Origin: an uncultured Pseudomonadota bacterium
GTDB lineage: Bacteria; Pseudomonadota; Gammaproteobacteria; Burkholderiales; Methylophilaceae
Assembly (NCBI GenBank): GCA_903854305.1
Contig: CAINWC010000311.1
Location: forward strand, 1-15,233
DNA: 15,233 nucleotides
Reading direction: 5' to 3'
Within the stretch, counting starts at the first letter, position 1, and every line of letters starts with the position of its first letter. Position numbers and translations under genes: made by a program. Positions 699 to 15,233 of the stretch are shown piece after piece. Below the pieces are notes generated by a model. The model made no database searches and was not told the DNA's origin. It worked only from the letters and a program-made list of their open reading frames with translations.

Positions 699-1646
699 CT
701 ATTTTCTAGCCGTTTTTGAATTTTCTGCATACCACTCATAGGTTCGTCGCACGCCCTCTGCCAAGCCGACCTTAGCTTTAAATCCTGTGCTATCAAGCTT
801 ATCAAGATTGTAATAGCGGACTAACTGACCATCGGGCTTATTTGAATCCCATTCAACGGAAACATTAGTCAATTTCTGCAACGTATCAACAATATCGCGG
901 ATTGGGTGGCGCATACCACTCCCCATATTCACCGATCCTTCTAGGTTACGTAGAATCGCAATCAAGGCAGATGCTGTATCATCTGAATACGAGAAGTCAC
1001 GAATTGCAACACCAGTGCCCCATACTTTTACTGGCTTGCCTTCACGAGCGGCATCAAAAAATTTTGCAACTAATGACGGGATAACGTGCCCCTCCTCTGC
1101 ATTAAAACCGTCGTGGGGGCCATACAAATTACCGCTAATTACAAAAGCTGATGACAACCCATACTGCTCTTTAGCTGCATTTAGCTGTGCCAACATCAAA
1201 CGTTTAGAGTGAGCATACGAATCCTCAGAGGAATGTGGCGGTCCTATCCATACCTGATCCTCAAAAAGCTCTTCCTGCCCCTTGAGTTCTGGATACACAC
1301 AACCAGAACCCATCGCCACAATTTTCTTCACCCCAGCACGGCGTGAATACTCTACTACATTGGTATTAATAAGCACATTGTCGACTAAAATATCTGATTT
1401 ATAACGAGTATTACCTCCAATTCCATGTACGCGTGCAGCTAAATGAAACACATAATCTGGAGCTATTTCTGATATAAATCGTGAAACTGCTGCACTATCG
1501 CGTAAATCACAATCGCGACTGCCAACACTGGTAATATTACTAAAACCTTCATTGGCTAGAGCGCTAGAGAGCGCACGACCAACCAAGCCCGTGCCGCCCG
1601 TAATTAAAATGCGCGAAGATGTTTCAATGTGGATTGTGTTACTCAT
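699..1646 (-). CDS. fcl: GDP-L-fucose synthase-like NAD(P)-dependent epimerase/reductase
   Basis: Short-chain dehydrogenase/reductase-fold enzyme expected to epimerise and reduce GDP-4-keto-6-deoxy-mannose to GDP-L-fucose in the cytoplasm. The 315 residues match the family length. The Rossmann motif GGTGLVG is at 17-23. Ser114 and Cys116 in the MGSGCVYP stretch, Tyr144/Lys148 (YxxxK) and His187 in the GHVIP motif line up with the catalytic Ser, Cys, Tyr, Lys and His known for E. coli GDP-fucose synthase. NLYGPHD (173-179) is also typical. Its ATG overlaps the stop of the GT2 gene as ATGA, and its stop is 3 bases before the acyltransferase start, so it sits inside the operon. No gmd (GDP-mannose 4,6-dehydratase) is visible, so the substrate must come from elsewhere. 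A related 4-keto-sugar epimerase/reductase activity is the main alternative. Confidence 0.88.
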   Translation of the reverse strand: MSNTIHIETSSRILITGGTGLVGRALSSALANEGFSNITSVGSRDCDLRDSAAVSRFISEIAPDYVFHLAARVHGIGGNTRYKSDILVDNVLINTNVVEYSRRAGVKKIVAMGSGCVYPELKGQEELFEDQVWIGPPHSSEDSYAHSKRLMLAQLNAAKEQYGLSSAFVISGNLYGPHDGFNAEEGHVIPSLVAKFFDAAREGKPVKVWGTGVAIRDFSYSDDTASALIAILRNLEGSVNMGSGMRHPIRDIVDTLQKLTNVSVEWDSNKPDGQLVRYYNLDKLDSTGFKAKVGLAEGVRRTYEWYAENSKTARK

Positions 1647-2626
1647 ATATTGTTAAACCCTTTTGCGTGCTTATAACGTTCTCTAAATTTATAAATGATG
1701 TTTGTATTTTTGCAAGTTGAGATAAAAAGTAATCCCGTGAATTTTATGGAATCGACCCAAGAGACCTGAATCAGTGCTTTTGTTACTTCCCACCAGCTTG
1801 CTGGTTCATATAAAAAACGAATAACATCGGATGCCATAAGCGTCGCAAACTGCCCTATTGGCTGGCCAGCTTGGCTAAACATTCGGTATTTAGTCAAAAT
1901 AAATTCAGCCTGCGAGCGAGCCGATTTTACACGGGCACGTGACGTTACTTCATGTTTACGAAAGCGACTCAAAGTGTCTGTACTAAAAATTACTCGCCCA
2001 TGCTTCATTACATCACCGATAAATAACCAGTCCCCTGTCAATCGAAGTCGTTTCAAAAAAGGCGTAAAAGCTGCCTTGAATGCATTGGTTTTAATCAGTG
2101 CAGAACTCATATTGGGTACCGTTTGACCGCGCAGTTGAAACCGTAAAAGCTCTTCGCGACCATCTACAACGAAATCCTCATCCCAGCGTTGTTCCTTCCA
2201 AATGTCGTGAAAATAATCGTTGGTGTGCCCAATAATTTCGCTTAACTCATTAATAATATGTGAGTTGCTGTAAAACAATACTGCATCTGGCTCTTCAATA
2301 AGGTGTGCAACGGCTTTTTCTAAAAAACACGACTCAGCAACATCATCGCTTTCACATACCCAAATATAATCACCAGTTCCTAATGTGCAAATTCGCTCCC
2401 ATGCTGCAAAAGGCGTCCCTGAATTTTGCTCGTTTAGCAGATACTGGAATCCATAACGAGCCTGTAACTTACTAATCTCATCATGTGAATTGTCGTCAGA
2501 ACAATCATCAATCACGATTAATTCAATATTCGGATAGGTCTGGTTGATGATTGATTCGATTCGCTCATGAATGTAGCGTCCATGATTATAAGACGGTACC
2601 ACTACGGTCACTTTAGGTTGCATCAT
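1643..2626 (-). CDS. Family 2 glycosyltransferase (GT-A fold)
   Basis: Transfers a sugar from a nucleotide donor to the growing polysaccharide on the cytoplasmic membrane face. From the start chosen here it has 327 residues. The N-terminal signature VTVVVPSYNHGRYI (6-19), the nucleotide-binding acidic run IDDCSDD (39-45) and the metal-binding ESDD (92-95, the DxD equivalent) are present in normal order. The C-terminal third (FRKHEVTSRAR and beyond) is family-typical and variable. The frame is open further upstream to 2737, but the paired ATGs at 2626 and 2623 directly follow a perfect AGGAGG (2633-2638). The GT2 domain also begins exactly there, so the longer start is rejected. It overlaps the 3' end of the upstream fusion gene by 14 bases and the downstream fcl-like start by 4 bases. 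Donor and linkage cannot be deduced. Confidence 0.9.
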   Translation of the reverse strand: MMQPKVTVVVPSYNHGRYIHERIESIINQTYPNIELIVIDDCSDDNSHDEISKLQARYGFQYLLNEQNSGTPFAAWERICTLGTGDYIWVCESDDVAESCFLEKAVAHLIEEPDAVLFYSNSHIINELSEIIGHTNDYFHDIWKEQRWDEDFVVDGREELLRFQLRGQTVPNMSSALIKTNAFKAAFTPFLKRLRLTGDWLFIGDVMKHGRVIFSTDTLSRFRKHEVTSRARVKSARSQAEFILTKYRMFSQAGQPIGQFATLMASDVIRFLYEPASWWEVTKALIQVSWVDSIKFTGLLFISTCKNTNIIYKFRERYKHAKGFNNI

Positions 2627-5087
2627 GCACAACCTCCTCTTTGCTAAGATTGTATATTTTGCTAATAGTCGGCCACTTTGATTGCCATGAGTAGGTGGCC
2701 AAACATAACTCACGTGCGGCTTGCCCCATTCGGTCATTCAACTCAAAGTCAGCCAATAGCCGAATACATTGAGCAGCAAATATCTCGGGCTTCTCAGCAA
2801 CAAAAATATTCTTAGAATCCTGATATGCTAAGCCCTTGTGGGCTATAGGTGACACCACGCTTGGCACGCCAAGAATGGCGTATTGATTGACTTTGCCACG
2901 GAGTCCTGACCCAGCCAATGCGGGGGCAATGCCGACTCTAGCTTCTTGAATGTATGGTGCGATAGCAATGACTTCTCCCACGAATTCAATGGACTTGTCT
3001 TGATCATTTAAGAAAGCAGACAAATCGCCCCTGCCAACTACAGTCAGCATATAATCGGGTACGTTAGCCTTCACAATAGGATGAACGTTATCAAGATACC
3101 AACGCAAAGCCAACACATTAGTTTCTGACCCAAAATATGCAACATACAGAATATTGCAACGTCGGTTTTTTGCACTAGTACAAACGAAGTTGGGAGCGAT
3201 CGCTTCAGCAAACTCAAATTGTGACACCCCTGTATCCACGCCTAGTATATGCCTAGAAAATGTCACCGCTCTTAAAAAACTCGCATCCGAACGTGAAACA
3301 CAGACCACCTCGTCTGCTTTTAATGCGAAACGTATCTCTTCAGCTGCCGAACGAAATGATGCAACTGTTTTATGTAAACGAGACCTATCTACGGTCAAAA
3401 AGTTAGTTCGTAAATTAATAAACGCTACTTTTGCAAGAGACTCCATCGGAGTGAAAATAATTTTTGATCCTATGAGCCTAAAAGCATCTATTTGATAAGC
3501 TGACTGATGAAATTGCAAATCAATAACATCATAGTGCAATGGCGAACCACGCGTTATAACTAGCGTTTCCGGTGTCAACTCTTCTGTAGGCGACAGATAC
3601 ACATTATCAAATATCTCATTTACATCATCTAGCGTCCAATCTATCGATGGCCTGTGAAAAGTAAAAAGATCTATCTGAACATTCGGACATTGGTGACGAA
3701 TGAGGTCATATATATCTAAAATTCTTAGCCCGCCAGCATGTGCACGAGTTGGGCAATAATAACTCACAAGCAATATACGAAACTTAGCGTTGTTGTTTTC
3801 TGCATATGCATTTTTTTCAACTTCCATGTTCACAATAGCTTGCTCATTTCGGCTGGATTTCAGTCGTAAATTTGCATACCTGTTATTCTTGATAACACTC
3901 TCGACTCTAGAAAAATTCCTAATCAACCAGCGCAGTGGGGATGTCAAACGCCATGACTTGGATTTATACACAGCAGTTAACTCCGATTCGAATTTCTCGA
4001 TCTGGTTATCGCGCTCAGCAACCACACTGTAAAGTTGCGACACTTGTTCATCACGCTCGCGTGATAACTTATCCAAGGCGACTTGTAATTGCGCAACCAT
4101 TGCTTTATGTGAATCACGGTCTATAATTAGCGACTCGGCCGTCTGCCCCAAATTCCCAATCAATGCATCGCGCTCAGCAACCACACTGTAAAGTTGTCCT
4201 AAATTCTCATCATTCTCCTGCGTCATCTGCTCAAAAGAATTTTGAAGCAGACCTATCCCAGCCTTCTGCGAATCTCGGTCTATAATCAGCGATTCGACCG
4301 TCTGGCTTAAACTCACAATCCATTCATCACGCTCAACAATCTCTTTTATACTCAATAAGTCCTGATCAAGCAGCCCTACTTTAACATCTGGTATAGCTCC
4401 ATTGGTTGCAATCGCAATCAGGTAAATTGAATTGGAAAGCCCAGGAACAGGCTCCATACGGCTGTCTGCCAAACGGTAAGTTTCACTGAGGCAAACTTTA
4501 TCTTCTTGAAAAATAAGCGATCCATAAGCCGCTCTTTGGCCAAAGACAGTATGACAGGTAAAATGACTTTCCAGAAGTTGTACGAACTCATCACGGTACA
4601 GCTCTTTAACATGGTATTCATTGTTGTAGGCTGGCTTATCAGTGTATTCCAACTTATCTGGACACGAAATCACCAACAATCCATTAGGCTTCAACACTCT
4701 TTTTATCTCAAGCATCATAGCTTCGTGTTCGTCATGATGTTCAATAGTTTCGAAGCTCACAACAATGTCAACACAAGCATCTGGAAGCGGAATTGCAGCG
4801 CAGGATCCTTCTAAAAACTCAAGATTATCAGCTTTGTATTTTGCTTTAGCATGAAATACGGCTTCGGAGGAAATATCAACGCCAGTGACATGCGCTGCAG
4901 ATCGAGCAAGCATAGCGCTGCCGTAACCTTCTCCGCTGGCAATATCCAGCACTTGCTTACCTGATGTAACCTGCACTGCGAACAAATAACGATGCAGATG
5001 TTCCAACTCTACACTGCCGTGTATATCTGGCAGATAACGCTCTCCAGTCCACGGCAAAGATTGCAAATTAGTATCGCCTTCACTCAT
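2613..5087 (-). CDS. Fusion: SAM methyltransferase, coiled coil with tandem repeat, GT4-type glycosyltransferase
   Basis: An 824-residue three-part protein. Residues about 15-200 are a class I SAM methyltransferase (Methyltransf_11 type): VLDIASGEGYG (46-56) binds SAM, GVDIS (69-73) ends strand 2, and SFETIEHHDE (111-120) is the post-II motif. Residues about 240-375 are charged and heptad-like, probably a coiled coil, built from two 53-residue repeats plus the start of a third. A basic KSWRLTSPLRWLIRNF stretch (377-392), common at the end of such coiled coils in polysaccharide enzymes, follows. Residues about 435-815 are a GT-B glycosyltransferase (group 1/GT4), with the sugar-nucleotide region around GSGLRGKVNQYAILGVPSV (727-745). 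The canonical Glu of the EGxG motif is not obvious there, so activity is uncertain. The start ATG has a fair AAAGGTG site. The architecture suits a bifunctional chain-modifying enzyme; a length-control role is inference. Confidence 0.85.
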   Translation of the reverse strand: MSEGDTNLQSLPWTGERYLPDIHGSVELEHLHRYLFAVQVTSGKQVLDIASGEGYGSAMLARSAAHVTGVDISSEAVFHAKAKYKADNLEFLEGSCAAIPLPDACVDIVVSFETIEHHDEHEAMMLEIKRVLKPNGLLVISCPDKLEYTDKPAYNNEYHVKELYRDEFVQLLESHFTCHTVFGQRAAYGSLIFQEDKVCLSETYRLADSRMEPVPGLSNSIYLIAIATNGAIPDVKVGLLDQDLLSIKEIVERDEWIVSLSQTVESLIIDRDSQKAGIGLLQNSFEQMTQENDENLGQLYSVVAERDALIGNLGQTAESLIIDRDSHKAMVAQLQVALDKLSRERDEQVSQLYSVVAERDNQIEKFESELTAVYKSKSWRLTSPLRWLIRNFSRVESVIKNNRYANLRLKSSRNEQAIVNMEVEKNAYAENNNAKFRILLVSYYCPTRAHAGGLRILDIYDLIRHQCPNVQIDLFTFHRPSIDWTLDDVNEIFDNVYLSPTEELTPETLVITRGSPLHYDVIDLQFHQSAYQIDAFRLIGSKIIFTPMESLAKVAFINLRTNFLTVDRSRLHKTVASFRSAAEEIRFALKADEVVCVSRSDASFLRAVTFSRHILGVDTGVSQFEFAEAIAPNFVCTSAKNRRCNILYVAYFGSETNVLALRWYLDNVHPIVKANVPDYMLTVVGRGDLSAFLNDQDKSIEFVGEVIAIAPYIQEARVGIAPALAGSGLRGKVNQYAILGVPSVVSPIAHKGLAYQDSKNIFVAEKPEIFAAQCIRLLADFELNDRMGQAARELCLATYSWQSKWPTISKIYNLSKEEVVHDAT
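2633..2638 (-). promoter_or_regulatory. Consensus Shine-Dalgarno deciding the GT2 start
   Basis: On the minus strand AGGAGG is followed after 6 bases by the first ATG (2626) and after 9 bases by the second (2623). It lies inside the last codons of the upstream methyltransferase/glycosyltransferase gene, as expected for a ribosome re-initiation site in a tightly packed operon. It is the strongest ribosome-binding site I saw in the cluster. Confidence 0.85.
4014..4331 (-). repeat. Tandem 159-bp (53-codon) repeat inside the coiled coil
   Basis: Two adjacent in-frame units, residues 253-305 (4173-4331) and 306-358 (4014-4172), are identical at 30 of 53 positions by my count, and a third unit begins with RD at 359. 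The ESLIIDRDS and QLYSVVAERD segments are nearly invariant. At DNA level a 30-base stretch at 4008-4037 recurs exactly at 4167-4196, and 4111-4145 is close to 4270-4304; both pairs are offset by exactly 159 bases. This shows duplication within the gene. Confidence 0.92.
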
Positions 5088-5129: not shown

Positions 5130-5861
5130 TTACTTTTCTGCATATACAACAACTCGATGACCGCGAACAAATTGTTCATAATCGCTCAGCTCTGGCGTGT
5201 AAAAATCAACTGTTTTGAAGCCAAATTGCTTTAGCAGAAATTCAAGAGCCTGCCTTGATGGCACTAAAGCCACATCAGTCAAACCACCTTCTGGGCTATG
5301 CGAGTAGTCAACACATAAGCCGAACAGACCATTAAGTTCACGCTGCCACAGGTAACTTCCATCCTCTATTGATCCAGTAAGATTATACGGAAGCACCTGT
5401 GTTTCAATGCAAAGTGCTTTTTTCGTAAGTGTTGCCAGCTTTCTCATGATTTGAATTGGGTTCTCTACGTGATATAGCAATCCAAAACATAATACAAAAT
5501 CACCACACCGCTTATCATCCCAAAGTTCAACTGATGAGTTCTCAAAACAAATTTCAGGATGGCCTAAAAGAGTTGCAATCTGCTTAGCTTTTCCCAAAGA
5601 TTCCGCGTTCTTGTCCAAGCCTGTAACATTTTTGAAATAATCAGCAAGAACAAGAGAGAAAAACCCCTCATGGCATGAAATATCTAAGGCTGTGGAATAG
5701 TCTCCACTCAATGCACTCAAATATCGACGAAGCGCATTTTCTCTTGTAACATGGATTTGTCTTGCGACTTCATCTAAATAACTTTCTGTCTTAGTTCCAT
5801 CCGGTAAACAAAACTCATAGAACCATTTTTGGCTTTTAACCAGATCTAATTCATTGCTCAT
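5130..5861 (-). CDS. Class I SAM-dependent methyltransferase
   Basis: A 243-residue cytoplasmic protein with a single methyltransferase domain. ALDISCHEGFFS (58-69) is the SAM-binding motif I, with SCHEG in place of the usual GxGxG. GLDKN with Asp83 would hold the SAM ribose, and CFGLLYHVENP (125-135) is the post-motif II loop, resembling that of CmoB/DUF1698-like enzymes. The context between export, glycosyltransferase and another methyltransferase gene argues for sugar or chain-end methylation, not tRNA modification. The ATG is preceded by AAGGAAG at good spacing. The gene is separated by 42 bases from the downstream fusion gene and by 167 bases from the upstream CmcI-like gene. The substrate is unknown. 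Confidence 0.82.
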   Translation of the reverse strand: MSNELDLVKSQKWFYEFCLPDGTKTESYLDEVARQIHVTRENALRRYLSALSGDYSTALDISCHEGFFSLVLADYFKNVTGLDKNAESLGKAKQIATLLGHPEICFENSSVELWDDKRCGDFVLCFGLLYHVENPIQIMRKLATLTKKALCIETQVLPYNLTGSIEDGSYLWQRELNGLFGLCVDYSHSPEGGLTDVALVPSRQALEFLLKQFGFKTVDFYTPELSDYEQFVRGHRVVVYAEK

Positions 5862-6028: not shown

Positions 6029-6685
6029 CTAATTCTCTCTTTTCAAGTATCCTTTGGGGTTCCATGTAATAAGAAATGGTTCTTTTTTTCTGTCAGAATA
6101 GAAACTTGTGTTGTTCTCTAGAAAATCCGAAATTGCTTCATAAGGCCCAGGGTTCGGTCCTACGTTTAGACCATGATGACAGATGCTGTCTTCAACAATT
6201 AGGTAGCTTCCTACGGTTACAAGTTGCGAATATTTCATTAGCACATTAAGAGTATTCTGGTATTCATGAGAACTATCTTCAATTACCAGAATAGTCGTAG
6301 CTTCGCTACATTTCGCCGCCACAACATCAAAAACTTCGCATGCATCACCCGTAATAAAGGATATTCTAGGGTGATTCTTGGCTGTTTGATCAACACGAGA
6401 GTGATCAATATCCACCGCAATGACTCGCCCCTTATTTAGATGATCACATAAATGCGCCAAAGAAAGAGCACTTCCTCCATGATAGTTACCAATTTCCACA
6501 ATAACATCAGGCTTCAATGCAAAAATTATCTCTTGATATATCCAAAAATCCATGGGACTGCGAAGGCACGAAATTCCAAAATATGTTGAGTCTGTTACAA
6601 CCCTTTCTTGGATAACTTCAAGCACTTCACCAAGCGTCTTTGTTAGCGCATCTTCCATGTAAATTTGTTCATCAGGCGTATTCAT
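6029..6685 (-). CDS. CmcI/rhamnosyl O-methyltransferase family protein
   Basis: A 218-residue member of the family named for cephalosporin hydroxylase CmcI, whose relatives in polysaccharide and glycolipid clusters are O-methyltransferases. VEIGNYHGGSALS (63-75) is the SAM-binding loop and VDID (91-94) follows strand 2. The acidic Asp137 (IEDSSHEY) and the Glu165-Asp166 pair (VEDS) match the metal site described for CmcI. The tail carries the family's GPYEAISDFL (180-189) and FLITWNPKGYLKR (204-216) segments. AAGGA precedes the ATG at proper spacing. It lies 82 bases after wzt. Together with the two other methyltransferase domains it suggests a methylated polymer. The acceptor hydroxyl cannot be predicted. 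Confidence 0.85.
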   Translation of the reverse strand: MNTPDEQIYMEDALTKTLGEVLEVIQERVVTDSTYFGISCLRSPMDFWIYQEIIFALKPDVIVEIGNYHGGSALSLAHLCDHLNKGRVIAVDIDHSRVDQTAKNHPRISFITGDACEVFDVVAAKCSEATTILVIEDSSHEYQNTLNVLMKYSQLVTVGSYLIVEDSICHHGLNVGPNPGPYEAISDFLENNTSFYSDRKKEPFLITWNPKGYLKREN

Positions 6686-6767: not shown

Positions 6768-8099
6768 TTAAATCTTATTGAGTGAAACTGATTGAAATGG
6801 AATGCCGACCAAGCCATAACGAAGTTTATTTGAAGCAACCTTAAACACAATGGCATCATGTAACCAGTGATGTTGTTTGTGCTCAACAGGATTACCTTCA
6901 GCAATAGAAACCGTAATTGTGTATTCCCCATTTGACAATAAAGGAATTTGGAATTTAAATGAGGCTTTAATCATTTCATTGGCATTGACTAACAAAGGAA
7001 CATTCACATAAGTATAGGTATGCTCACCAAATAGTGGTTGCCCTAAACGATCTTTAACAAACCAACCTAATATAGGACTATAAATACTTTCTTTGGCTTC
7101 CGCAATAATTTCAAGATTCACCAGCTCTCCACCAAGTAGCGTAGGTATTTCTTGCCCATCTATATTTAATATCCTCACAGATATAATCTGTGCTTTACCA
7201 GACTCCCATCCAGCAGACCCATCAAGTTGGGTGAAATAGGTAATTGAAGTTTCTTGGTCAATTTGGTTACTTTCAACCTCTTGTTTTGAACTTTTATTAG
7301 TGTCGACACTTCTTAATTGAAGTTGATCGCCATAAATTTCTTGCAAAGTAAATTGTGTGTAAGCTTCTACAACTTCTTTTGTGATCCCAGCCTGAGAAAC
7401 TTTACCTTTATCAAGCCAAATGGCATGTTGACAGAGATTTACAACGCTTCCGCTATCATGGCTGACGAATAAGACTGTCCCACGCTCCATAAATTTGCGC
7501 AGAAACCTCATGCATTTTTGAGTAAATACTGCATCACCCACCGCCAACGCCTCGTCAACGACCAGAATATCTGCATCTACATTGGCAATAACGGCAAAAG
7601 CAAGTCGCAGCATCATCCCACTTGAGTAGGTTTTAACAGGCTGCTCAATAAACTCGCCAATGTCAGCGAAGACTAATATGTCGTTAAAACGTGCATCAAT
7701 CTCATCCTTGCTTAAACCAAGCACAGCAGCATTCATATACACATTCTCACGCCCAGTAAATTCTGGGTTAAATCCAGAGCCTAGTTCCAGCAGAGCAGCA
7801 ACACGTCCATTGGTTTGAATGCTGCCACTGGTAGGAGTAAGCGTTCCACAAATCATTTGTAATAAAGTAGATTTTCCAGAACCGTTACGTCCAATAATGC
7901 CGACAGTTTCACCTTTTTTAATTTCAAATGAAACGTCTTTGAGTGCCCAGAATTCACGAAAATATTGTTTTTGCCGCTTACCTGCTATACGCCTTATTCT
8001 CGGCATGACAAACTGCTTAAGCCGATCTCGCGGAGTATCGTAGATTTGATAGCACTTACTTAGATTATTTACGCGGATAGCTATATCGTTAGAGGACAT
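6768..8099 (-). CDS. wzt: Polysaccharide ABC transporter ATPase with C-terminal carbohydrate-binding domain
   Basis: ATPase half of the ABC exporter that moves completed, lipid-linked polysaccharide across the inner membrane. The protein has 443 residues. Walker A GRNGSGKST is at 70-78, the ABC signature YSSGM at 158-162, Walker B ILVVDE at 178-183 and the H-loop His at 214. Residues about 285-443 form a Wzt C-terminal beta-sandwich domain, which in E. coli O8/O9a-type systems binds the modified non-reducing end of the chain. The frame extends upstream to 8150, but the ATG at 8099 is chosen because a ribosome site (AGGG, 7-base spacing) precedes it and MSSNDIAIRVNNLSK is the normal family start. 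It overlaps the wzm stop by 11 bases. The extended domain, with methyltransferases next door, fits export gated by chain capping. Confidence 0.93.
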   Translation of the reverse strand: MSSNDIAIRVNNLSKCYQIYDTPRDRLKQFVMPRIRRIAGKRQKQYFREFWALKDVSFEIKKGETVGIIGRNGSGKSTLLQMICGTLTPTSGSIQTNGRVAALLELGSGFNPEFTGRENVYMNAAVLGLSKDEIDARFNDILVFADIGEFIEQPVKTYSSGMMLRLAFAVIANVDADILVVDEALAVGDAVFTQKCMRFLRKFMERGTVLFVSHDSGSVVNLCQHAIWLDKGKVSQAGITKEVVEAYTQFTLQEIYGDQLQLRSVDTNKSSKQEVESNQIDQETSITYFTQLDGSAGWESGKAQIISVRILNIDGQEIPTLLGGELVNLEIIAEAKESIYSPILGWFVKDRLGQPLFGEHTYTYVNVPLLVNANEMIKASFKFQIPLLSNGEYTITVSIAEGNPVEHKQHHWLHDAIVFKVASNKLRYGLVGIPFQSVSLNKI

Positions 8100-8934
8100 C
8101 AGCAAACCCTTTTCTGGTTTTTTGGAACAAAGCATAACCAGCCCAAGCAACTACGGTAGCGGCAACGGTATAAGTACCTAACCCAATCCAATTGGGCAAA
8201 TGCCCCCATATCAGTACCTCACGTGCTTGCTCAATAATAAAGGTGAGCGGGTTAGCCATGATGAAGGGACGGAACTTTTCTGGCACTGCGGTCACGGGGT
8301 AAAACACCGGGGAAAGGAACATTAACACTGTGGTGATAATGCCAATAGTTTGACCAACATCACGGAGAAATACACCTAATGCAGCCAGCATCCACGAGAT
8401 ACCTAGCGTCACAATAACTAACGGCAGTAGCACCAATGGCGTGAAAATCACCGTCCAGTGCAAGTAGCCATTAAACAATACAAAGGCAACCAGCAACACA
8501 CCAAGGCTTATTAGGCTATGGAATAACGCCGCGCCCATGGCAATGACTGGCAGTATTTCAATGGGAAACACTACTTTTTTGACGTAATTAACATTGGAAA
8601 GAATAAGTGAAGGTGCACGATTGAGCACCTCACTAAACAAGCCTAATACAATCATGCCCACAAATAGCACTGCTGCGAATAGCGTTCTACTATCGTCACC
8701 ACCCCAGCGTGATTTAAAAATCATAGAGAATACAAAGGTATATACCACAAGCATAAATACTGGGTTGAAAAACGACCATGCCAGACCCATAACCGAGCCT
8801 TTGTAACGGCCAACAACTTCACGCTTGGTCATTTGTACAATGAGCTGGCGGTTGCGCCACAGGCTTTTAGCCAAGGCTACGAGCGATGTGGGTTGAGCTG
8901 CATGTGGGTTAATTGTTGTTGATGTGTGGGTCAT
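8089..8934 (-). CDS. wzm: Polysaccharide ABC transporter permease (ABC-2 type)
   Basis: Membrane half of the polysaccharide exporter, partner of Wzt. The 281 residues fit the family. An amphipathic N-terminus with the LIVQMTKREVVGRYKGSVMG stretch (31-50), typical of Wzm/TagG proteins, leads to about six hydrophobic helices, near 51-72, 85-103, 120-154, 162-184, 194-213 and 250-270. The RDVGQ stretch (191-195) and SPVFYPVTAVPEKFR (208-222) are family-typical. The start overlaps the rfbC stop as ATGA, and the stop lies inside the wzt start region. The presence of wzm/wzt, with no wzx or wzy seen here, indicates ABC-dependent rather than Wzy-dependent assembly. Confidence 0.93.
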   Translation of the reverse strand: MTHTSTTINPHAAQPTSLVALAKSLWRNRQLIVQMTKREVVGRYKGSVMGLAWSFFNPVFMLVVYTFVFSMIFKSRWGGDDSRTLFAAVLFVGMIVLGLFSEVLNRAPSLILSNVNYVKKVVFPIEILPVIAMGAALFHSLISLGVLLVAFVLFNGYLHWTVIFTPLVLLPLVIVTLGISWMLAALGVFLRDVGQTIGIITTVLMFLSPVFYPVTAVPEKFRPFIMANPLTFIIEQAREVLIWGHLPNWIGLGTYTVAATVVAWAGYALFQKTRKGFADVL

Positions 8935-9476
8935 GCAAAGTGTTCCGCTGTTGCTAATGTTTTGGCTTGTTGATCTTTTGCGGACAAAATGGGTTCACCG
9001 TTAATCGGCCATTTTATATTAATTGTAGGGTCATTCCAAACAATACTGCGCTCGTATTCCGGTGCGTAGTAATCTGTGGTTTTGTAAAGAAACTCCGCAG
9101 CTTCCGAAAGCACCACAAAACCATGGGCAAAACCTTCTGGCACCCATAGTTGTTTTTTATTGTCGGCAGATAGCACTTCACCCACCCACTTGCCAAAGGT
9201 AGCCGAACTTTTGCGAATATCCACTGCTACGTCGAACACTTCACCTTGCACCACACGCACCAACTTACCTTGAGGTTGCTGAATTTGGTAATGCAAGCCA
9301 CGCAATACGTTTTTAGCTGAGCGACTGTGATTATCTTGTACGAAATTTACTTGTCGACCGATAAACGATTCAAACTTTGCTTGATTGAAGCTTTCAAAAA
9401 AGAAGCCACGCTCGTCGCCGAATACTTTAGGCTCTATCACAAGCACATCTGGAATTGCTGTTGGGGTGATTTTCAA
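8931..9476 (-). CDS. rfbC: dTDP-4-dehydrorhamnose 3,5-epimerase, TTG start
   Basis: Cupin-fold epimerase that converts dTDP-4-keto-6-deoxyglucose to dTDP-4-keto-L-rhamnose. The 181 residues match RmlC/RfbC, as do [14 protein letters not shown] (19-32), RGLHYQ with catalytic His62 (59-64), [14 protein letters not shown] (111-124) and Tyr131. The start codon is TTG, read from the bases 9476-9474. It is placed just where the family N-terminus (M-K-I-T-P-T-A-I-P) begins, 7 bases after GAAGGGG, and it overlaps the rfbA stop as TTGA. No ATG fits as well. The next pathway enzyme, RfbD, is not in the window. Confidence 0.95.
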
Positions 9477-10360
9477 GGCTGAACCCCTTCTTTCAGCAAG
9501 CGTTGCAAGTATTGTCCGTAGCCATTTTTAGCCAGTGGTTGCGCCAGTTTCTCCAATTGCTCGGCATTGATAAAACCTTTGCGATAGGCAATCTCCTCTG
9601 GGCAAGATACTTTTAAGCCTTGCCTATGCTCGATGGTTTGAATGAAATTACTCGCTTCAATTAAACTCTCGTGGGTGCCAGTATCTAACCATGCATAGCC
9701 ACGCCCCATGACTTCTACTGTGAGTTGTTGACGCTCAAGGTACATACGGTTTAAGTCAGTAATTTCTAGCTCACCACGTGCTGATGGCTTAAGGTTGGCG
9801 GCCATCTCTACCACCTGATTGTCATAAAAATATAGGCCCGTCACTGCATAATTGCTCTTAGGGCTAGTAGGCTTTTCTTCTAAACTGGTCGCTTGGCCTT
9901 GTTTATCAAAAGCCACCACACCATAGCGTTCAGGGTCTTGCACGTGGTAAGCAAACACTGTTGCTCCTTGATCCTGCATCATGGCTTTTTCAAGTTGAAT
10001 TTGTAGGTCATGGCCGTAGAAAATGTTGTCGCCCAGCACTAAAGCACTTGGGTCGTTGCCAATAAAATCTTTACCAATAATAAACGCTTGGGCAAGGCCA
10101 TCGGGGCTGGGTTGTACCGCATATTGCAGGTTAAGACCCCATTCATTGCCATCACCAAGCAGTTGCTCAAAACGTGGTGTGTCTTGTGGCGTAGAGATAA
10201 TTAAGATATCGCGTATTCCAGCCAGCATAAGTGTGCTGAGCGGATAGTAAATCATCGGCTTATCGTAAATAGGTAACAGTTGTTTTGATACCACCTTAGT
10301 CACTGGATATAGACGAGTGCCAGAGCCTCCAGCAAGGATAATGCCTTTACGTTGAGTCAT
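9473..10360 (-). CDS. rfbA: Glucose-1-phosphate thymidylyltransferase
   Basis: Makes dTDP-glucose from dTTP and glucose 1-phosphate, the first step to dTDP-rhamnose and related deoxysugars. At 295 residues it is full length. GGSGTRLYP (11-19) is the nucleotide loop, [12 protein letters not shown] (26-37) the sugar-phosphate region, [10 protein letters not shown] (83-92) the base-recognising stretch, and LGDNIFYG with Asp111 (109-116) the metal site. The ATG overlaps the stop of a 26-codon ORF as ATGA and has only a weak ribosome site of its own, so it may depend on translation of that ORF. rfbB, the next step, is absent from the window. Confidence 0.96.
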
Positions 10361-10608: not shown

Positions 10609-11943
10609 ATGCCTACCAATATACTGAACCTGGTCAATTACGCCGTGTTATCCGTGGAAAATACTGACTACGATTATCACATCAAGGCCGAAACAAAAAC
10701 CATACCTAGCCAATGCCCTACCTGTAATTCAAAAGCCATTGTCAGCTTTGGCCGCCGTGAGCAGTTGATTAAAGACTTACCCATGCATGGCAGACGCGTT
10801 GGTATCTACGTCAGCACTAGACGTATGAAGTGTACTGCCTGTGCTAAAACATTCAGTGAAATATTGCCTGATGTTGATGATAAGCGTGCCATGACAAAAC
10901 GATTGCTTGAGTGGATTGGCAAGCAGGCTATTAAGCGTACATTCTCCAGTATTGCTGAGGAAGTCGGCATTACAGAAGGAACTGTGCGCATCGTCTTTAA
11001 TGACTACATCAATGTGCTTGAAAAGACCATCAGATTTGAAACTCCTACATGGATGGGTATAGATGAAATCTACCTGATTAAACCGCGCGGTGTCATTACC
11101 AATATCCGCAACAATACCGCAGTTGAAATACTCAAAGACCGCAACAAGAAAACGGTGGCTGATTACCTGTACCGTCTTAAAGACCGTGACGATGTGCAAT
11201 ACGTGGCGATGGACATGTGGAAGCCATACCGAGATGCGGTTGGTGACGTCCTTCCACAAGCCAAAGTTGTGGTTGATAAATTCCATGTAGTACGCATGGC
11301 GAATGATTCAATGGAGCGTGTTAGAAAGTCAATGAAAGCAGACCTGACGCTTAAACAGAAGCGCGGCCTGATGCATGACCGCTTTGTATTATTACGCCGA
11401 GAAAGCGAACTAACAGACCAAGAGAGCTTTAATTTGGATGGGTGGTCTAAGAATTACCCACTGCTAGGTGAGGCATACAGACTCAAGGAAGCGTTTTTTG
11501 GTATCTATGACGCAAAGACACAGCAGGAAGCAATGCAACGCTACGAGGCGTGGCGCAAGAGCATTCCAGCCGAGTTATACAGTTACTTTCTGCCAGTCGT
11601 TACAGCATGGTCAAACTGGCAGCCTTGCATCGTTGAATATTTCAATCATCCAGTGACCAATGCTTACACCGAATCACTGAACAACTTAATAAGGGTGACA
11701 AATAGGCTTGGACGAGGCTATTCGTTTGAAGCTTTGAGAGCCAAAATATTGTTTAGCGAAGGCGCACATAAAGTCATTCAGTCAAGACCTAAATTTGAGC
11801 GAAGAGACGAATCGATGAGTATGAATTACGCAATGTTCTCACTGGGCGATTCACTGCCATCAACACGAACGGTAGAAAAGGCAAAAAACTATGGTGCTGA
11901 CTTATCAACACTGGCACGTATGATTGAACGTGGTGAGATTTAA
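10609..11943 (+). CDS. ISL3-family transposase
   Basis: A 444-residue DDE transposase that cuts and rejoins the element's ends. It has an N-terminal zinc-finger-like pair, Cys36/Cys39 and Cys75/Cys78, and a helix-turn-helix around residues 113-128 (SSIAEEVGITEGTVRI). The catalytic core carries Asp152 in MGIDEIYL, Asp223 in VVDKFHV and Glu355 in NAYTESLNN, in the order and spacing of the DDE_Tnp_ISL3 family. GRGYSFEALRAKILF (369-383) is the usual C-terminal motif. No frameshift or stop is seen and the length is normal, so it appears intact. It is the only plus-strand gene in the window, opposed to both neighbours. Confidence 0.95.
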   Translation: MPTNILNLVNYAVLSVENTDYDYHIKAETKTIPSQCPTCNSKAIVSFGRREQLIKDLPMHGRRVGIYVSTRRMKCTACAKTFSEILPDVDDKRAMTKRLLEWIGKQAIKRTFSSIAEEVGITEGTVRIVFNDYINVLEKTIRFETPTWMGIDEIYLIKPRGVITNIRNNTAVEILKDRNKKTVADYLYRLKDRDDVQYVAMDMWKPYRDAVGDVLPQAKVVVDKFHVVRMANDSMERVRKSMKADLTLKQKRGLMHDRFVLLRRESELTDQESFNLDGWSKNYPLLGEAYRLKEAFFGIYDAKTQQEAMQRYEAWRKSIPAELYSYFLPVVTAWSNWQPCIVEYFNHPVTNAYTESLNNLIRVTNRLGRGYSFEALRAKILFSEGAHKVIQSRPKFERRDESMSMNYAMFSLGDSLPSTRTVEKAKNYGADLSTLARMIERGEI

Positions 11944-11976
11944 TGGGTTATCAACCACGTATTACGGATACCCATT
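11942..11976. repeat. Inverted repeat at the IS right end
   Basis: AATGGGT (11942-11948) and ACCCATT (11970-11976) form a 7-bp perfect inverted repeat spanning the transposase stop and the element tip. The similarity continues imperfectly inward. Its outer two to three bases belong to the host gene, so part of the symmetry may be chance or may reflect target choice. Confidence 0.5.
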
Positions 11977-12663
11977 TAATTCAGCCAACATGATGGCTGG
12001 TTGGCTGAAATCTACTACGCGACCTACTTCTGCCGAGCCACTTTGAATTAAATAATAGTAATCACCCTCGCCGCCTTGCCGAACAATCACCTGTCCGGCT
12101 GACACGGTGATGCTAGTCATACGCCTAAACATCTCATCAACATTGGCAGCAGGTAAGCGGCTAAACATGCCGCTCTGCAGACTAACTGCACTAAAAACCC
12201 CAGTATTATTCGTCCAATCACCCGCACTGCGCGCTAGTTTTAAACTTTTGGCACCAACTGGTTTGATTGCTGTTTTTTCTAGGCTTGATTGCGTTAGTTT
12301 GTCGTGACTGGATAACTGATCCCACGTCATCATAATATCAAGCAGATCAATATCAATGCGCAAAATATCGATATCTGTTAGCGCGATGGTGTCTTTGATT
12401 TTGTTGTTGCTATTGACCGGATGCTTAGCTGCAGGGGAGCCTCCACGCAATACTATCTTTTGATCATCGTCGAACCTTAACCTCAAATGACCATTCAACA
12501 GATAAAGAGCTTGTGCCGATTTGGCTACATTCATCCGTAGCGGATCCATATCTTTATTTACTTTTTCTACGAAACATAACGCCGCAAGCTCTTGTTTACG
12601 TCCGGCAGAAAGCCTTGAAATTGGCTCAAGCTGGTCTAATATCGCGGTGATGGATACTGCCAT
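11962..12663 (-). pseudogene. Cyclic-nucleotide-binding-domain protein truncated by the IS
   Basis: The remaining frame of 233 codons holds two domains resembling cyclic-nucleotide-binding (CNB) beta-barrels. The first, about 8-112, is degenerate: it keeps the LYLLNGHLRLRF strand pattern but has no GE...R.A phosphate-binding cassette. The second, about 165-230, has the clear start VSAGQVIVRQGGEGDYYYLIQSGSAEVGRV (187-216). It stops at LAELN just before the cassette, which normally follows. Asn230 (AAT at 11976-11974) is the last host codon; Gly-Tyr-Pro and the TAA come from the IS. The intact protein was surely longer and may have carried an effector domain. The ATG has AAGG at usual spacing, 32 bases after the phosphodiesterase gene. 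The remnant cannot bind cNMP by the usual mechanism. Confidence 0.8.
11980..12009. repeat. Perfect 10-bp inverted repeat beside the IS insertion point
   Basis: TTCAGCCAAC (11980-11989) pairs perfectly with GTTGGCTGAA (12000-12009) around a 10-base loop. A second CAGCCA/TGGCTG pairing (11982-11987 with 11994-11999) is possible. It starts 6 bases outside the IS tip, within host coding sequence. It could have been a structured insertion target; a terminator is unlikely because no U-run follows. Confidence 0.6.
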
Positions 12664-12695
12664 AATAAAAGCCTTAAATGAGATAGCCTTGGTGG

Positions 12696-13475
12696 TTACA
12701 AATCAAATATTTGATGATTTTTAAGCGCTTGCACAGGCAGGGTTAAATAACTCTCAGCAATCTCTTGCATGATATTCTCACCTTCTCCTGGTTTCAGGTG
12801 TGTGATAAAGATTTCGATGGGTGGATTATTTTCAGAAAAATTTAGCTTACCTAGCTCAGTCACTAACATCGACGGGCATAGATGCTTAGACAGCCTTGCC
12901 AGCTCAAACTCACTATTACTGAATGCAGTTTCTATAATAAGGTAGTTAAGATTTTTAATCTTATTCACTTCAACCCATAAGGCATCACATTCAGTGGTGT
13001 CGCCAGTAAATATCAAGCTGGCTTCCCCACTATCAACATGATAACCAACGGCTGGCACTACGTGATTGACGGGCAAAGGCGTAATTTTTCTACCGTTAAA
13101 ATCTTGTGTCTCACCTAACTTAACTTCGTTATAAAGTAAAAATGGATTGGTGGCGTCTGGAATCGCATTAAAATCTGGCCATATTTTCCAGTTGAAAATA
13201 TGGGTGCGTAAGGTGGAAATGGTTTCTTTACTGGCATGTACGGTAACAGGCTCCGCGCGAATACCCATGACGGTATCAAGCAGCAATGGAATAGAGGTAA
13301 TATGGTCTAAATGTGAGTGCGTAATAAAAATATGATCAATCGCCAGCAGCTCATCCATAGACAAGTCGCCAACGCCAGTACCAGCGTCAATTAAAATGTC
13401 GTGATCCACTAGCAATGCAGTGGTGCGTAACTCACCACCTATGCCGCCACTACAACCGAGTATTTTGATTTTCAT
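12696..13475 (-). CDS. MBL-fold class II-type 3',5'-cyclic-nucleotide phosphodiesterase
   Basis: Metal-dependent hydrolase expected to cleave cAMP or cGMP to the 5' nucleotide. The 259-residue metallo-beta-lactamase fold has HSHLDH (53-58) followed by ITSIPLLLDTVMG, the wording typical of the PDEase_II (yeast PDE1/CpdP-like) family. His138 (PVNHVVPAVGY), Asp159 (FTGDTT) and His226 (ITHLKPG) complete a two-metal site, and Glu182 (IIETAF) is also family-like. It sits 36 bases after the adenylate cyclase and 32 bases before the cNMP-binding gene, which supports a cyclic-nucleotide substrate. No strong ribosome site precedes the ATG. Another small-molecule MBL hydrolase is possible but less likely. 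Confidence 0.8.
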   Translation of the reverse strand: MKIKILGCSGGIGGELRTTALLVDHDILIDAGTGVGDLSMDELLAIDHIFITHSHLDHITSIPLLLDTVMGIRAEPVTVHASKETISTLRTHIFNWKIWPDFNAIPDATNPFLLYNEVKLGETQDFNGRKITPLPVNHVVPAVGYHVDSGEASLIFTGDTTECDALWVEVNKIKNLNYLIIETAFSNSEFELARLSKHLCPSMLVTELGKLNFSENNPPIEIFITHLKPGEGENIMQEIAESYLTLPVQALKNHQIFDL

Positions 13476-13511
13476 ATTGTTATAATAATTCGTTAATGTT
13501 GTTTTATTGAC

Positions 13512-15233
13512 TTATTTTGTTTCGTAATTAAAAAAGCCATCCCAATCGCCTACAGGTGGATTTTGCTTAAAATAGGCAATACGCTTAATATACATTTCAT
13601 AAAGGAAACGCTGTGGTTCAATTTTTTGCAGCTTGATAAATTGCATTTCAGCAAGATCCCAACTTTGGCTGCGATAAAGCTTGAGCGTTTCACGATACAG
13701 TTTTAAATCGTCTTTTGTCGTTTTATCTAATTCAATTTCTGCACAAATCGGTTCAAAAATAGCCACAGGCTTATCTTTACCTTTTACCCGCACGATGTCT
13801 AGCTCTCTATAAGCAAACTCCGGCACTTGCGCTTTGGTAAATTCACTGACTATGATGTGCACACCGTAATTTTTAGTCAGACTTTCTAGCCTAGATCCTA
13901 AATTTACCGCATCGCCCATCACGGTATAGGCCATGCGAAACTCTGAACCCATGTTGCCCACTGTCATTAAGCCAGAATTAAGCCCAACGCCAATATTGAT
14001 AGGTGGCCAGCCTTTGGCGGCAAAATCTTGTTGCAGTTTAACCAAAGCAGTTATCATGCCAATGGCTGCTTGTAGCGCGTGTTTTGCATGGTCTGCATCG
14101 TGCAACGGCGCGCCCCAAAACGCCATAATCGCATCACCCATATATTTGTCAATCGTACCGCGATTATGGTGAATAACGTGCGTCATTGGGGTTAAAAATT
14201 CGTTCATCAATTGCGTTAGCTGCTTTGGATCGAACCCTTCAGAAATAGTCGTGAAGCCGCGAATATCTGAAAAAAGTACGGTCATTTCACGGCTCTCGCC
14301 TTCTAAACTAAATGACTCTGGATTTTTAGCCATTTCATCGACCAGCTCAGGTGGCACATATTGACCAAACAACCTTGCCAACTGGCGCTTGCCGCGTGTT
14401 TCGATAAAAAATCCATAGGACATATTGATAAAATAAATCGAGGCGATCATCACCAACAACGAAGCTAATGGCAACACCAAATTAGCATATTGCCATGCGG
14501 ACAGGTTAAATAGTATCACAACAACTGACGTCACTAAGGTCAATACCGTCGCCCATAGCGGGCTTAAAATAGGCAACATTATCGCCAATAGCAATCCGAC
14601 TAACAGCAGCAATAAAAACTCTGCGCCTAACGTATAAGCGGGATGCTCCTTGATATTATTATCGAGAATACCCGCAATGATATTGGCATGTACCTCGACA
14701 CCAGCATAGATATTTTGCACGGGCGTTGCACGTAAGTCCAACAGACCTGCTGCGGTGGTACCTAGCAACACGATTTTATTTTTCAAAATCGCTGGATTCA
14801 CTTTATTATTCAGCACATCGGTGGCTGAGATATATGAAAAACTGCCTTGAGGGCCACGGTATGGAATGAGCACAGAGACATGCTCATCTACAGGAATACG
14901 ATGATTGCCTAACTTAAGCCATTCAAGCCTTGAGTATTGTTTGCCCCCATCTAAATCCTCAGCGAAGCCTGCCTCTATTTTTTCTGCCCCTAGCGCCAGT
15001 CCTACAACGGCCAATGGCAATGACTCGTACATATTGCGATCATATTTAATTAACAAAGGGACTTTACGCATAATGCCATCTTCATCTGGGTCTATATTAA
15101 AATGTCCCGCTGTTTTAGCATTTTTTTGCAGCACGTCTAAATTTGCAGCAAAACCCGCGGCGTTTTTAAATTCAACATTCTTGCCTTTAAAACTACCTTC
15201 AACAAATGATGGTAGTGGCAGAGCGCCGCTACC
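13512..15233 (-). CDS. CHASE2-domain class III adenylate/guanylate cyclase, 5' partial
   Basis: Membrane-bound receptor cyclase making cAMP (or cGMP) in response to an extracytoplasmic signal. The frame is open to the window edge; 573 residues are visible and the N-terminus is missing. The first about 190 visible residues are the periplasmic CHASE2 sensor, with the GHFNIDPDEDGIMRKVPL stretch and the IVLLGTTAAGLLDLRATP end motif. Three hydrophobic helices follow, at about 200-224, 229-243 and 249-270. The cyclase domain (about 310-495) has the metal aspartates Asp323 (LFSDIRGFT) and Asp367 (YMGDAIMAFWG). Lys363 (DKYMGD) and Asp441 (YTVMGDAVN) fit purine recognition and favour ATP, and Arg448 (NLGSRLE) is the transition-state arginine. 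All catalytic residues appear present. A GTG at 15134 is internal, not the start. Confidence 0.92.
   Translation of the reverse strand, partial: GSGALPLPSFVEGSFKGKNVEFKNAAGFAANLDVLQKNAKTAGHFNIDPDEDGIMRKVPLLIKYDRNMYESLPLAVVGLALGAEKIEAGFAEDLDGGKQYSRLEWLKLGNHRIPVDEHVSVLIPYRGPQGSFSYISATDVLNNKVNPAILKNKIVLLGTTAAGLLDLRATPVQNIYAGVEVHANIIAGILDNNIKEHPAYTLGAEFLLLLLVGLLLAIMLPILSPLWATVLTLVTSVVVILFNLSAWQYANLVLPLASLLVMIASIYFINMSYGFFIETRGKRQLARLFGQYVPPELVDEMAKNPESFSLEGESREMTVLFSDIRGFTTISEGFDPKQLTQLMNEFLTPMTHVIHHNRGTIDKYMGDAIMAFWGAPLHDADHAKHALQAAIGMITALVKLQQDFAAKGWPPINIGVGLNSGLMTVGNMGSEFRMAYTVMGDAVNLGSRLESLTKNYGVHIIVSEFTKAQVPEFAYRELDIVRVKGKDKPVAIFEPICAEIELDKTTKDDLKLYRETLKLYRSQSWDLAEMQFIKLQKIEPQRFLYEMYIKRIAYFKQNPPVGDWDGFFNYETK

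Follow-up and report, generated by a model that had tools for sequence, protein, structure and literature searches.

Chain length is reported to be set by a terminator carried on a coiled coil in the Escherichia coli O9 group and in Klebsiella pneumoniae O12 (PMC11231755), while termination by a methyltransferase alone has been described for WbdD of E. coli O8 (PMC3482155). Terminator and polymerase are also found in one chain, as in WbbB and the ORF6 protein of Klebsiella O7 (PMC11231755) and in WsaE (PMC2943079, PMC3898925). The present analysis concerns a gene at positions 2613 to 5087 of a 15,233-nucleotide stretch of DNA from an uncultured bacterium of the Methylophilaceae, which encodes an 824-residue protein joining a methyltransferase (MT) domain, a coiled coil and a GT-B glycosyltransferase domain. 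This stretch, called the window, spans the complete contig C311, one of 445 in a draft genome of 2.5 Mb, and all coordinates are window positions.

The window protein shares with K. pneumoniae O7 ORF6 an N-terminal methyltransferase, a central coil and C-terminal glycosyltransferase sequence in one chain, within a wzm/wzt cluster (PMC11231755); ORF6 has in addition a kinase, a domain resembling a carbohydrate-binding module (CBM) and two GT2 modules, whereas the window protein has no kinase and one GT-B, the GT2 being encoded by the next gene. In Raoultella terrigena and K. pneumoniae O12, WbbB (PMC11231755; PMC9587256) also combines a terminator, a coil and a polymerase of two glycosyltransferases, but its N-terminal terminator adds a Kdo (3-deoxy-D-manno-oct-2-ulosonic acid) cap and its modules belong to GT99, GT102 and GT103 (PMC11231755), while in the window a methyltransferase stands N-terminally and the GT-B is GT4-like. 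WbdD of E. coli O8 and O9a is likewise a methyltransferase terminator (PMC3482155) whose coil has a membrane-proximal amphipathic region (PMC11231755); it recruits a separate polymerase, WbdA, and has a kinase in O9a, whereas the window chain contains its own GT-B and no kinase. The solved WbdD structure did not appear among the PDB sequence matches listed for the MT or among the best 50 Foldseek matches, both being crowded by other methyltransferases and glycosyltransferases. Finally, WsaE of Geobacillus stearothermophilus unites an N-terminal 2-O-methyltransferase with glycosyltransferases in one chain, again in a wzm/wzt cluster (PMC2943079), but has two rhamnosyltransferase domains where the window chain has one glycosyltransferase, belongs to an S-layer glycan, and is described, in the available part of the source, with no mention of a coil.

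The preliminary description of this DNA had proposed that extension and termination may be coupled in one protein. A terminator, a ruler and a polymerase module in one chain gain comparative support from the predicted helix, the methyltransferase residues, the linker variation and the GT99 heads presented below; the idea of coupling is right in kind and not new, since it is known from WbbB, O7 ORF6 and WsaE. What seems new is the comparative part, namely the exchange of the N-terminal enzyme, the series of linker and repeat lengths, and a Wzt cap-binding domain (CBD) closest to a methyl-cap binder of Aquifex. In the open-licence literature searched, available in part, neither the kinase-less MT-coil-GT-B form, nor a GT-B devoid of the EX7E motif, nor the swap to sulfotransferase-like or pyruvyl-transferase heads, nor the series of one, two and four repeats was found, which is weak evidence. 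The reading proposed here, to which a probability of roughly two in three is given, is that a repeat-built ruler keeps a terminator, which adds a methyl cap, at a distance from a polymerase close to the membrane, all serving a surface polysaccharide exported by an ABC transporter. The features on which it is based are the following:

2613..5087, minus strand: methyltransferase, coiled coil and GT-B fusion gene, stop codon included (824-residue open reading frame; Pfam; 431 related proteins)
4383..5087, minus strand: MT domain, residues 1-235, predicted chain terminator, with its Pfam core (47-140) at 4668-4949 (Pfam, conserved residues, model)
3966..4346, minus strand: predicted continuous helix, residues 248-374, putative ruler (AlphaFold2 model m1c567262eeb2)
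4173..4331, minus strand: 53-residue coil unit 1, residues 253-305 (repeat comparison)
4014..4172, minus strand: 53-residue coil unit 2, residues 306-358 (repeat comparison)
3879..3959, minus strand: SWRxTxPLR motif and cationic amphipathic segment, residues 377-403, predicted membrane anchor (amphipathicity scan; low-confidence part of the model)
2637..3785, minus strand: GT-B glycosyltransferase domain, residues 435-817, GT4-like fold (Pfam, model, fold search)
2880..2912, minus strand: GT-B motif G-S-G-L-R-G-K-V-N-Q-Y, residues 726-736, at the place of EX7E in GT4 enzymes (alignment with PimA)
1643..2737, minus strand, longest open reading frame: GT2 glycosyltransferase, probable second polymerase module (Pfam)

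That one chain carries a methyltransferase, a repeat-built coil and a GT-B, as first described, is borne out by the open reading frame, by Pfam (Methyltransf_11, residues 47-140, E 3.6e-23; Glyco_trans_1_4, a group-1 glycosyltransferase, residues 645-780, E 3.4e-15), by the two 53-residue units and by AlphaFold2. The model, computed from a 45-sequence alignment (mean per-residue confidence, pLDDT, 82.3; predicted template modelling score, pTM, 0.51), consists of the MT domain, a helix that runs without a break from 248 to 374, a further short stretch of helix reaching residue 399 and the GT-B from about residue 435, both end domains being modelled confidently with the helix between them. With 127 residues and a rise of 0.15 nm for each, the extended helix thus predicted would measure about 19 nm. 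In this monomer model the order of MT (1-235), helix (248-374) and GT-B (435-817) is that of terminator, coil and polymerase, provided that the predicted activities hold. Some 12 residues separate MT and helix, at the place where O9a WbdD has its kinase, and no kinase family was matched by Pfam in the fusion protein at E<=0.01. The glycosyltransferase had been thought to replace that kinase; in fact, the rod lies between the kinase position and the glycosyltransferase.

Related proteins numbered 431 at E<=1e-3, the best 120 of which were listed and analysed, the window protein included; 64 of these 120 have an MT of the window type together with the GT-B, and 45 of the 64 entered an alignment (A1). 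The residues D48, G52, G54 and D71, which we take to be part of the S-adenosylmethionine (SAM) site motif, are among those invariant in 45/45 aligned sequences, window included. At the other end of the rod, the most amphipathic stretch of the protein follows SWRxTxPLR: the best ten of 807 18-residue frames start at residues 377-386 and have a net charge of +2 to +5, while segment 377-403 has a pLDDT of about 45-50 in the monomer model. In the 103 listed proteins with the motif the median charge over the next 18 residues is +4. SWR occurs in 51 of the 64 proteins with the window-type MT, and the longer SWRxTxPLR pattern in 35 of these 64 as well as in 39 of the 56 other listed proteins.

Loci around related genes were also compared. 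From L004-L008, L008 was left out (30% over 100 residues), and from the genome matches L010-L016 larger regions were taken for five (genomes G250, G727, G165, G427 and G425), L013 and L014 being left out for their short MT matches; nine related loci are considered below. Proteins made of MT and coil without a glycosyltransferase, with a similar C-terminal motif, exist in L004 (363 residues), L006 (609), L007 (309) and L020 (299), and therefore the MT family has both separate and fused arrangements. In L007 (7597-10766) the system is split in two: the gene of the 309-residue MT-coil protein overlaps one of 747 residues that has domains of the GT2 and GT-B types.

The putative ruler is built from repeats. 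The two units of the window are identical at 30/53 residues, with a DNA spacing of 159 nt and 74-80% identity, and Tandem Repeats Finder reported no array. Copies of this unit with matching flanks number one in P0003 and P0004, two in the window and four in P0002; other close pairs differ by anything from 0 to several hundred linker residues, not always by one repeat. Among the 64 listed proteins with the window-type MT the linker between MT and GT-B ranges from 106 to 566 residues (standard deviation 104.5), the end domains varying less (21.5 for the MT; 40.4 for the glycosyltransferase, extra C-terminal modules included). Strong internal repeats, that is, at least 20/28 identical residues, were found in 22 of the 64 linkers, whereas ten rounds of shuffles keeping each residue's heptad class gave not a single one. 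Among these 22, ten have a smallest repeat unit of 0 mod 7, nine one of 4 mod 7 and three another value. For the 19/22 units of 0 or 4 mod 7, p=2.7e-8 against a uniform chance of 2/7, and for 8/11 distinct units p=0.003, although both values flatter, the linkers being non-independent and the two classes having been picked after the repeat data were seen. Units of 53 and 39 residues equal heptads plus one 11-residue step, so that the coiled-coil register is kept.

P0028 and P0040 are 100% identical in MT and glycosyltransferase, and their coils differ by one perfect 63-residue unit, so that they would make the cleanest length comparison. The difference may be a true variation in length, but perfect repeats can also be collapsed when short reads are assembled, and no weight is placed on this pair. 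The units of the window, P0003, P0004 and P0002 have diverged (30/53 in the window) and thus mostly escape this objection.

The exporter genes belong to the same-strand run, which comprises rmlA-like, rmlC-like, wzm and wzt genes, two methyltransferases, the fusion gene, the GT2, an epimerase and an acyltransferase. The fusion gene had been placed beside Wzm/Wzt with a C-terminal Wzt domain; the common run and the Wzt_C match agree with this, while immediate adjacency does not hold, since the methyltransferase genes at 5130-5861 and 6029-6685 lie between:

5130..5861, minus strand: second methyltransferase gene (Pfam)
6029..6685, minus strand: third methyltransferase, rhamnosyl O-methyltransferase/CmcI family (Pfam RMNT_CmcI E 7.1e-46)
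6768..8150, minus strand: wzt, ABC-transporter ATPase with C-terminal CBD, Wzt_C at 6804-7211 (Pfam Wzt_C E 2.4e-30)
8089..8934, minus strand: wzm, ABC-transporter permease (Pfam ABC2_membrane E 3.5e-25; 50-75% identical in five other loci)

By its Wzm/Wzt pair with a C-terminal CBD, as judged from the sequence, the window would be counted among the chain-terminated, ABC-transporter-exported polysaccharide systems. The best PDB matches of the CBD are those of Aquifex aeolicus (8dky, E 2.1e-11; 6o14, E 2.7e-11), followed at E 0.01 by 2r5o, presumably the CBM of E. coli O9a. The ligand of the Aquifex CBD is 3-O-methyl-mannose, whose methyl group is stacked upon by Trp362, whereas mannose is not bound (structure 6O14; PMC9445017). 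This domain (8dky has the same sequence in the alignment) is the closest solved relative of the window CBD, the tryptophan being kept and other pocket residues differing. With the pocket positions (Leu300, Thr346, Ala348, Trp362) transferred by hand from the PDB-match alignment, Trp362 is kept in 6/7 aligned Wzt proteins (window, L004, L005, L007, L017 and L019; not L020), and position 348 is Ala or Ser in the same six. By tblastn, wzm-wzt was placed directly upstream of a window-type MT in 5/9 related loci (L004, L005, L007, L017, L019), a divergent pair adjoining the MT in L020, and a weaker Wzt match further away in L006 and L018. The order in L017 is that of the window, wzm-wzt-fusion-GT2-epimerase, minus the two intervening methyltransferases.

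From these elements a mechanism can be proposed in which the fusion protein would be the chain-terminating subunit and, at the same time, part of the polymerase. The cationic amphipathic segment would keep the GT-B at the membrane, where this domain and the GT2 of the next gene would extend a lipid-linked chain. The coil would space the MT away from both, so that only a chain grown across the gap could reach it; the MT would then O-methylate the non-reducing end directly, with no kinase step, and growth would stop. The methyl cap would be recognised by the CBD of Wzt, admitting the chain to Wzm/Wzt, and the gain or loss of whole repeats would change the allowed chain length.

Several points weigh against this reading. 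The 10-residue blocks of the helix have pLDDT values of 47-75 in the monomer model, lowest after about residue 340. The window linker is not one of the 22 with strong repeats (best 18/28), the residue classes 0 and 4 mod 7 were chosen a posteriori, and a plain hydrophobic-periodicity test (200 shuffles each) gave p=0.02 for the window and p<=0.01 in only 38 of the 64 linkers. As regards cap recognition, Leu300 and Thr346 of the Aquifex pocket are not kept in the related Wzt proteins, just the tryptophan and a small residue being retained, and one of the nine loci, L021, had no Wzm/Wzt match by tblastn. Furthermore, the GT-B lacks both EX7E glutamates, with S, A or G at 727 and Q at 735 in 120/120 listed proteins according to the PimA alignment, and the two additional methyltransferase genes, which stand between wzt and the fusion gene, might encode the capping enzyme instead.

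The same coil and GT-B carry quite different N-terminal enzymes. In the 120 listed proteins the head is a window-type MT in 64 and something else in 56, which were grouped by N-terminal similarity into 27 sulfotransferase-like heads, five mostly headed by GT2, five with another methyltransferase, three with PIG-L and GT2, two with DUF4915, two with GT99, one polysaccharide pyruvyl transferase and three other single cases, a further eight having fewer than 150 residues ahead of the glycosyltransferase. Head names come from Pfam run on all 27 sulfotransferase-like proteins and both GT99 proteins, on one member per small group, and from the Pfam listing for the rest. GT99 was matched in P0079 (E 2.9e-63) and P0097 (E 1.2e-60); with GT99 assumed to be the N-terminal, Kdo-adding module of WbbB, these matches put a terminator family exactly at the position of the window's MT. 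P0057 and P0109 have a DUF4915/TIGR03032-type head, which may hint at what that domain does.

This variety is what makes a scaffold conceivable, that is, a coil which merely tethers enzymes that act one after another and brings them to the membrane; the MT would then decorate the polymer or a terminal sugar, and chain length would not depend on the coil. Some heads are not obviously terminators (GT2, PIG-L with GT2, and DUF4915: 10/120 listed), linker lengths differ widely even in close relatives, and WsaE methylation is length-independent in vitro (PMC2943079). Nevertheless, GT99 occupies the same place, the repeat gains are mostly register-keeping units, and coils of this kind do set length in K. 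pneumoniae O12 and the E. coli O9 group (PMC11231755), so that the scaffold is considered unlikely and the ruler is preferred.

A second alternative, also improbable, is that the GT-B is an inactive glycan-binding or docking module, polymerisation being left to the GT2 gene and other enzymes. It draws on the replaced glutamates, EX7E being, on our assumption, the defining motif of GT4-type retaining GT-B enzymes, whose fold the C-terminal domain has. For the polymerising ruler protein preferred here, the GT2 of the next gene probably completes the polymerase, to judge from its relatives: it is 88% and 87% identical to the C-terminal modules of P0011 and P0013, GT2 is fused behind the same GT-B in six relatives, and MT, GT-B and GT2 occur in one chain in P0086. 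The likelier start of the GT2 gene is at 2626, still overlapping the fusion gene. As an observation in its own right, the 120 listed proteins form a glycosyltransferase family in which an invariant GxGxRGKxNQY (window 2880-2912) replaces EX7E.

It is very unlikely that the cap is added by the methyltransferase of 5130-5861 or of 6029-6685, the fused MT doing something else, for despite the position of both genes and the rhamnosyl O-methyltransferase/CmcI assignment of one, neither had a tblastn match at E<=1e-6 in the nine MT loci (unrelated methyltransferases there were not searched for), an absence in favour of capping by the fused MT, and wzm-wzt lies directly upstream of a window-type MT in five of the nine, the CBD tryptophan being kept in those five and in the window.

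The sulfotransferase-like heads, found in P0011, P0059 and 25 other listed proteins, may indicate sulfate-capped chains. RSGTS and RxPxxVxxSL, taken here as the 5'- and 3'-phosphate loops, occur in 27/27, a count of proteins that are not independent, having been grouped by similarity. Sulfotransfer_3 gave weak Pfam matches in 20/27 at E<=0.01, and the two inspected in detail, P0059 and P0045, scored below the Pfam cut-off. A PDB profile search with such a head returned no sulfotransferase at E<=0.01; the best 50 fold matches of model mc6d324ad07e7 were only GT-B-type or other glycosyltransferases, a search that hardly tests the head. A viral library search added nothing, and NCBIfam on seven relatives did not change the readings. 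If these heads are terminators, they predict a cap not found described in the open-licence literature searched, available in part; sulfate- or pyruvate-terminated chains, if real, would be cap chemistries not found there.

The proteins whose GT-B is most similar to that of the window (P0011, 88%; P0013, 86%) carry the sulfotransferase-like head, whereas those most similar in the MT are more distant in the GT-B (P0002, 81% MT and 68% glycosyltransferase; P0003, 79% MT and 80% glycosyltransferase). The coil of P0011 is 62% identical to that of the window. The mismatch suggests that recombination took place at the rod and left the coil in place. A wider and more tentative proposal, whose chances are put somewhat short of even, is that of a modular family in which a conserved rod and an EX7E-less GT-B take interchangeable capping enzymes, with methyl, Kdo and predicted sulfate or pyruvate caps swapped by recombination and chain length stepped by register-keeping repeats. 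The family would offer domain exchanges and differences in length made by nature, with which models of the ruler and of cap recognition are testable on natural proteins, the material being the relatives with one, two and four copies and the methyl-, Kdo- or sulfate-type enzymes on the same polymerase end.

The system is seldom found. The C-terminal part occurs in 2/369 genomes of the class, its own included (E<=1e-20), and the full fusion query in 0/36 other genomes of the genus at the same threshold. In the phylum 4/398 genomes matched at E<=1e-60, again including its own, the other three in the MT and coil part only; no more than two candidates were scored for each genome in this survey. When another 378 genomes were drawn, the centre genome G250 was the sole match. 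Among 161 matching plasmid records none had a place with 80% coverage of the query, and the best match, a Pseudodesulfovibrio plasmid, was not used. Such a rare and scattered module fits horizontal transfer of polysaccharide clusters.

The remaining polysaccharide genes of the run, whose terminal acyltransferase is cut by the contig end, are:

699..1646, minus strand: NAD-dependent epimerase, GDP-L-fucose-synthase-like (225 bits, under the model cut-off of 500; 73% identical and in the same order in L017)
8931..9476, minus strand: dTDP-sugar gene, rmlC-like as judged by inspection of its sequence (71-74% identity to two related loci)
9473..10360, minus strand: dTDP-sugar gene, rmlA-like as judged by inspection of its sequence (75-78% identity to two related loci)

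Elsewhere in the genome gmd, rmlB and a Wzy_C-family gene were found, each above its cut-off, so that donors of the dTDP-rhamnose and GDP-fucose types are plausible. An ISL3-family transposase on the plus strand (10609-11943; DDE_Tnp_ISL3 E 1.1e-58) separates the polysaccharide genes from the next block and lies on the opposite strand. That block (11962-15233, minus strand) is a row consisting of a CHASE2-adenylate/guanylate cyclase, a gene resembling metallo-lactamase-fold/class-II cAMP phosphodiesterases and a protein with a weak cyclic-nucleotide-binding match below cut-off, and may be a small cyclic-nucleotide signalling unit.

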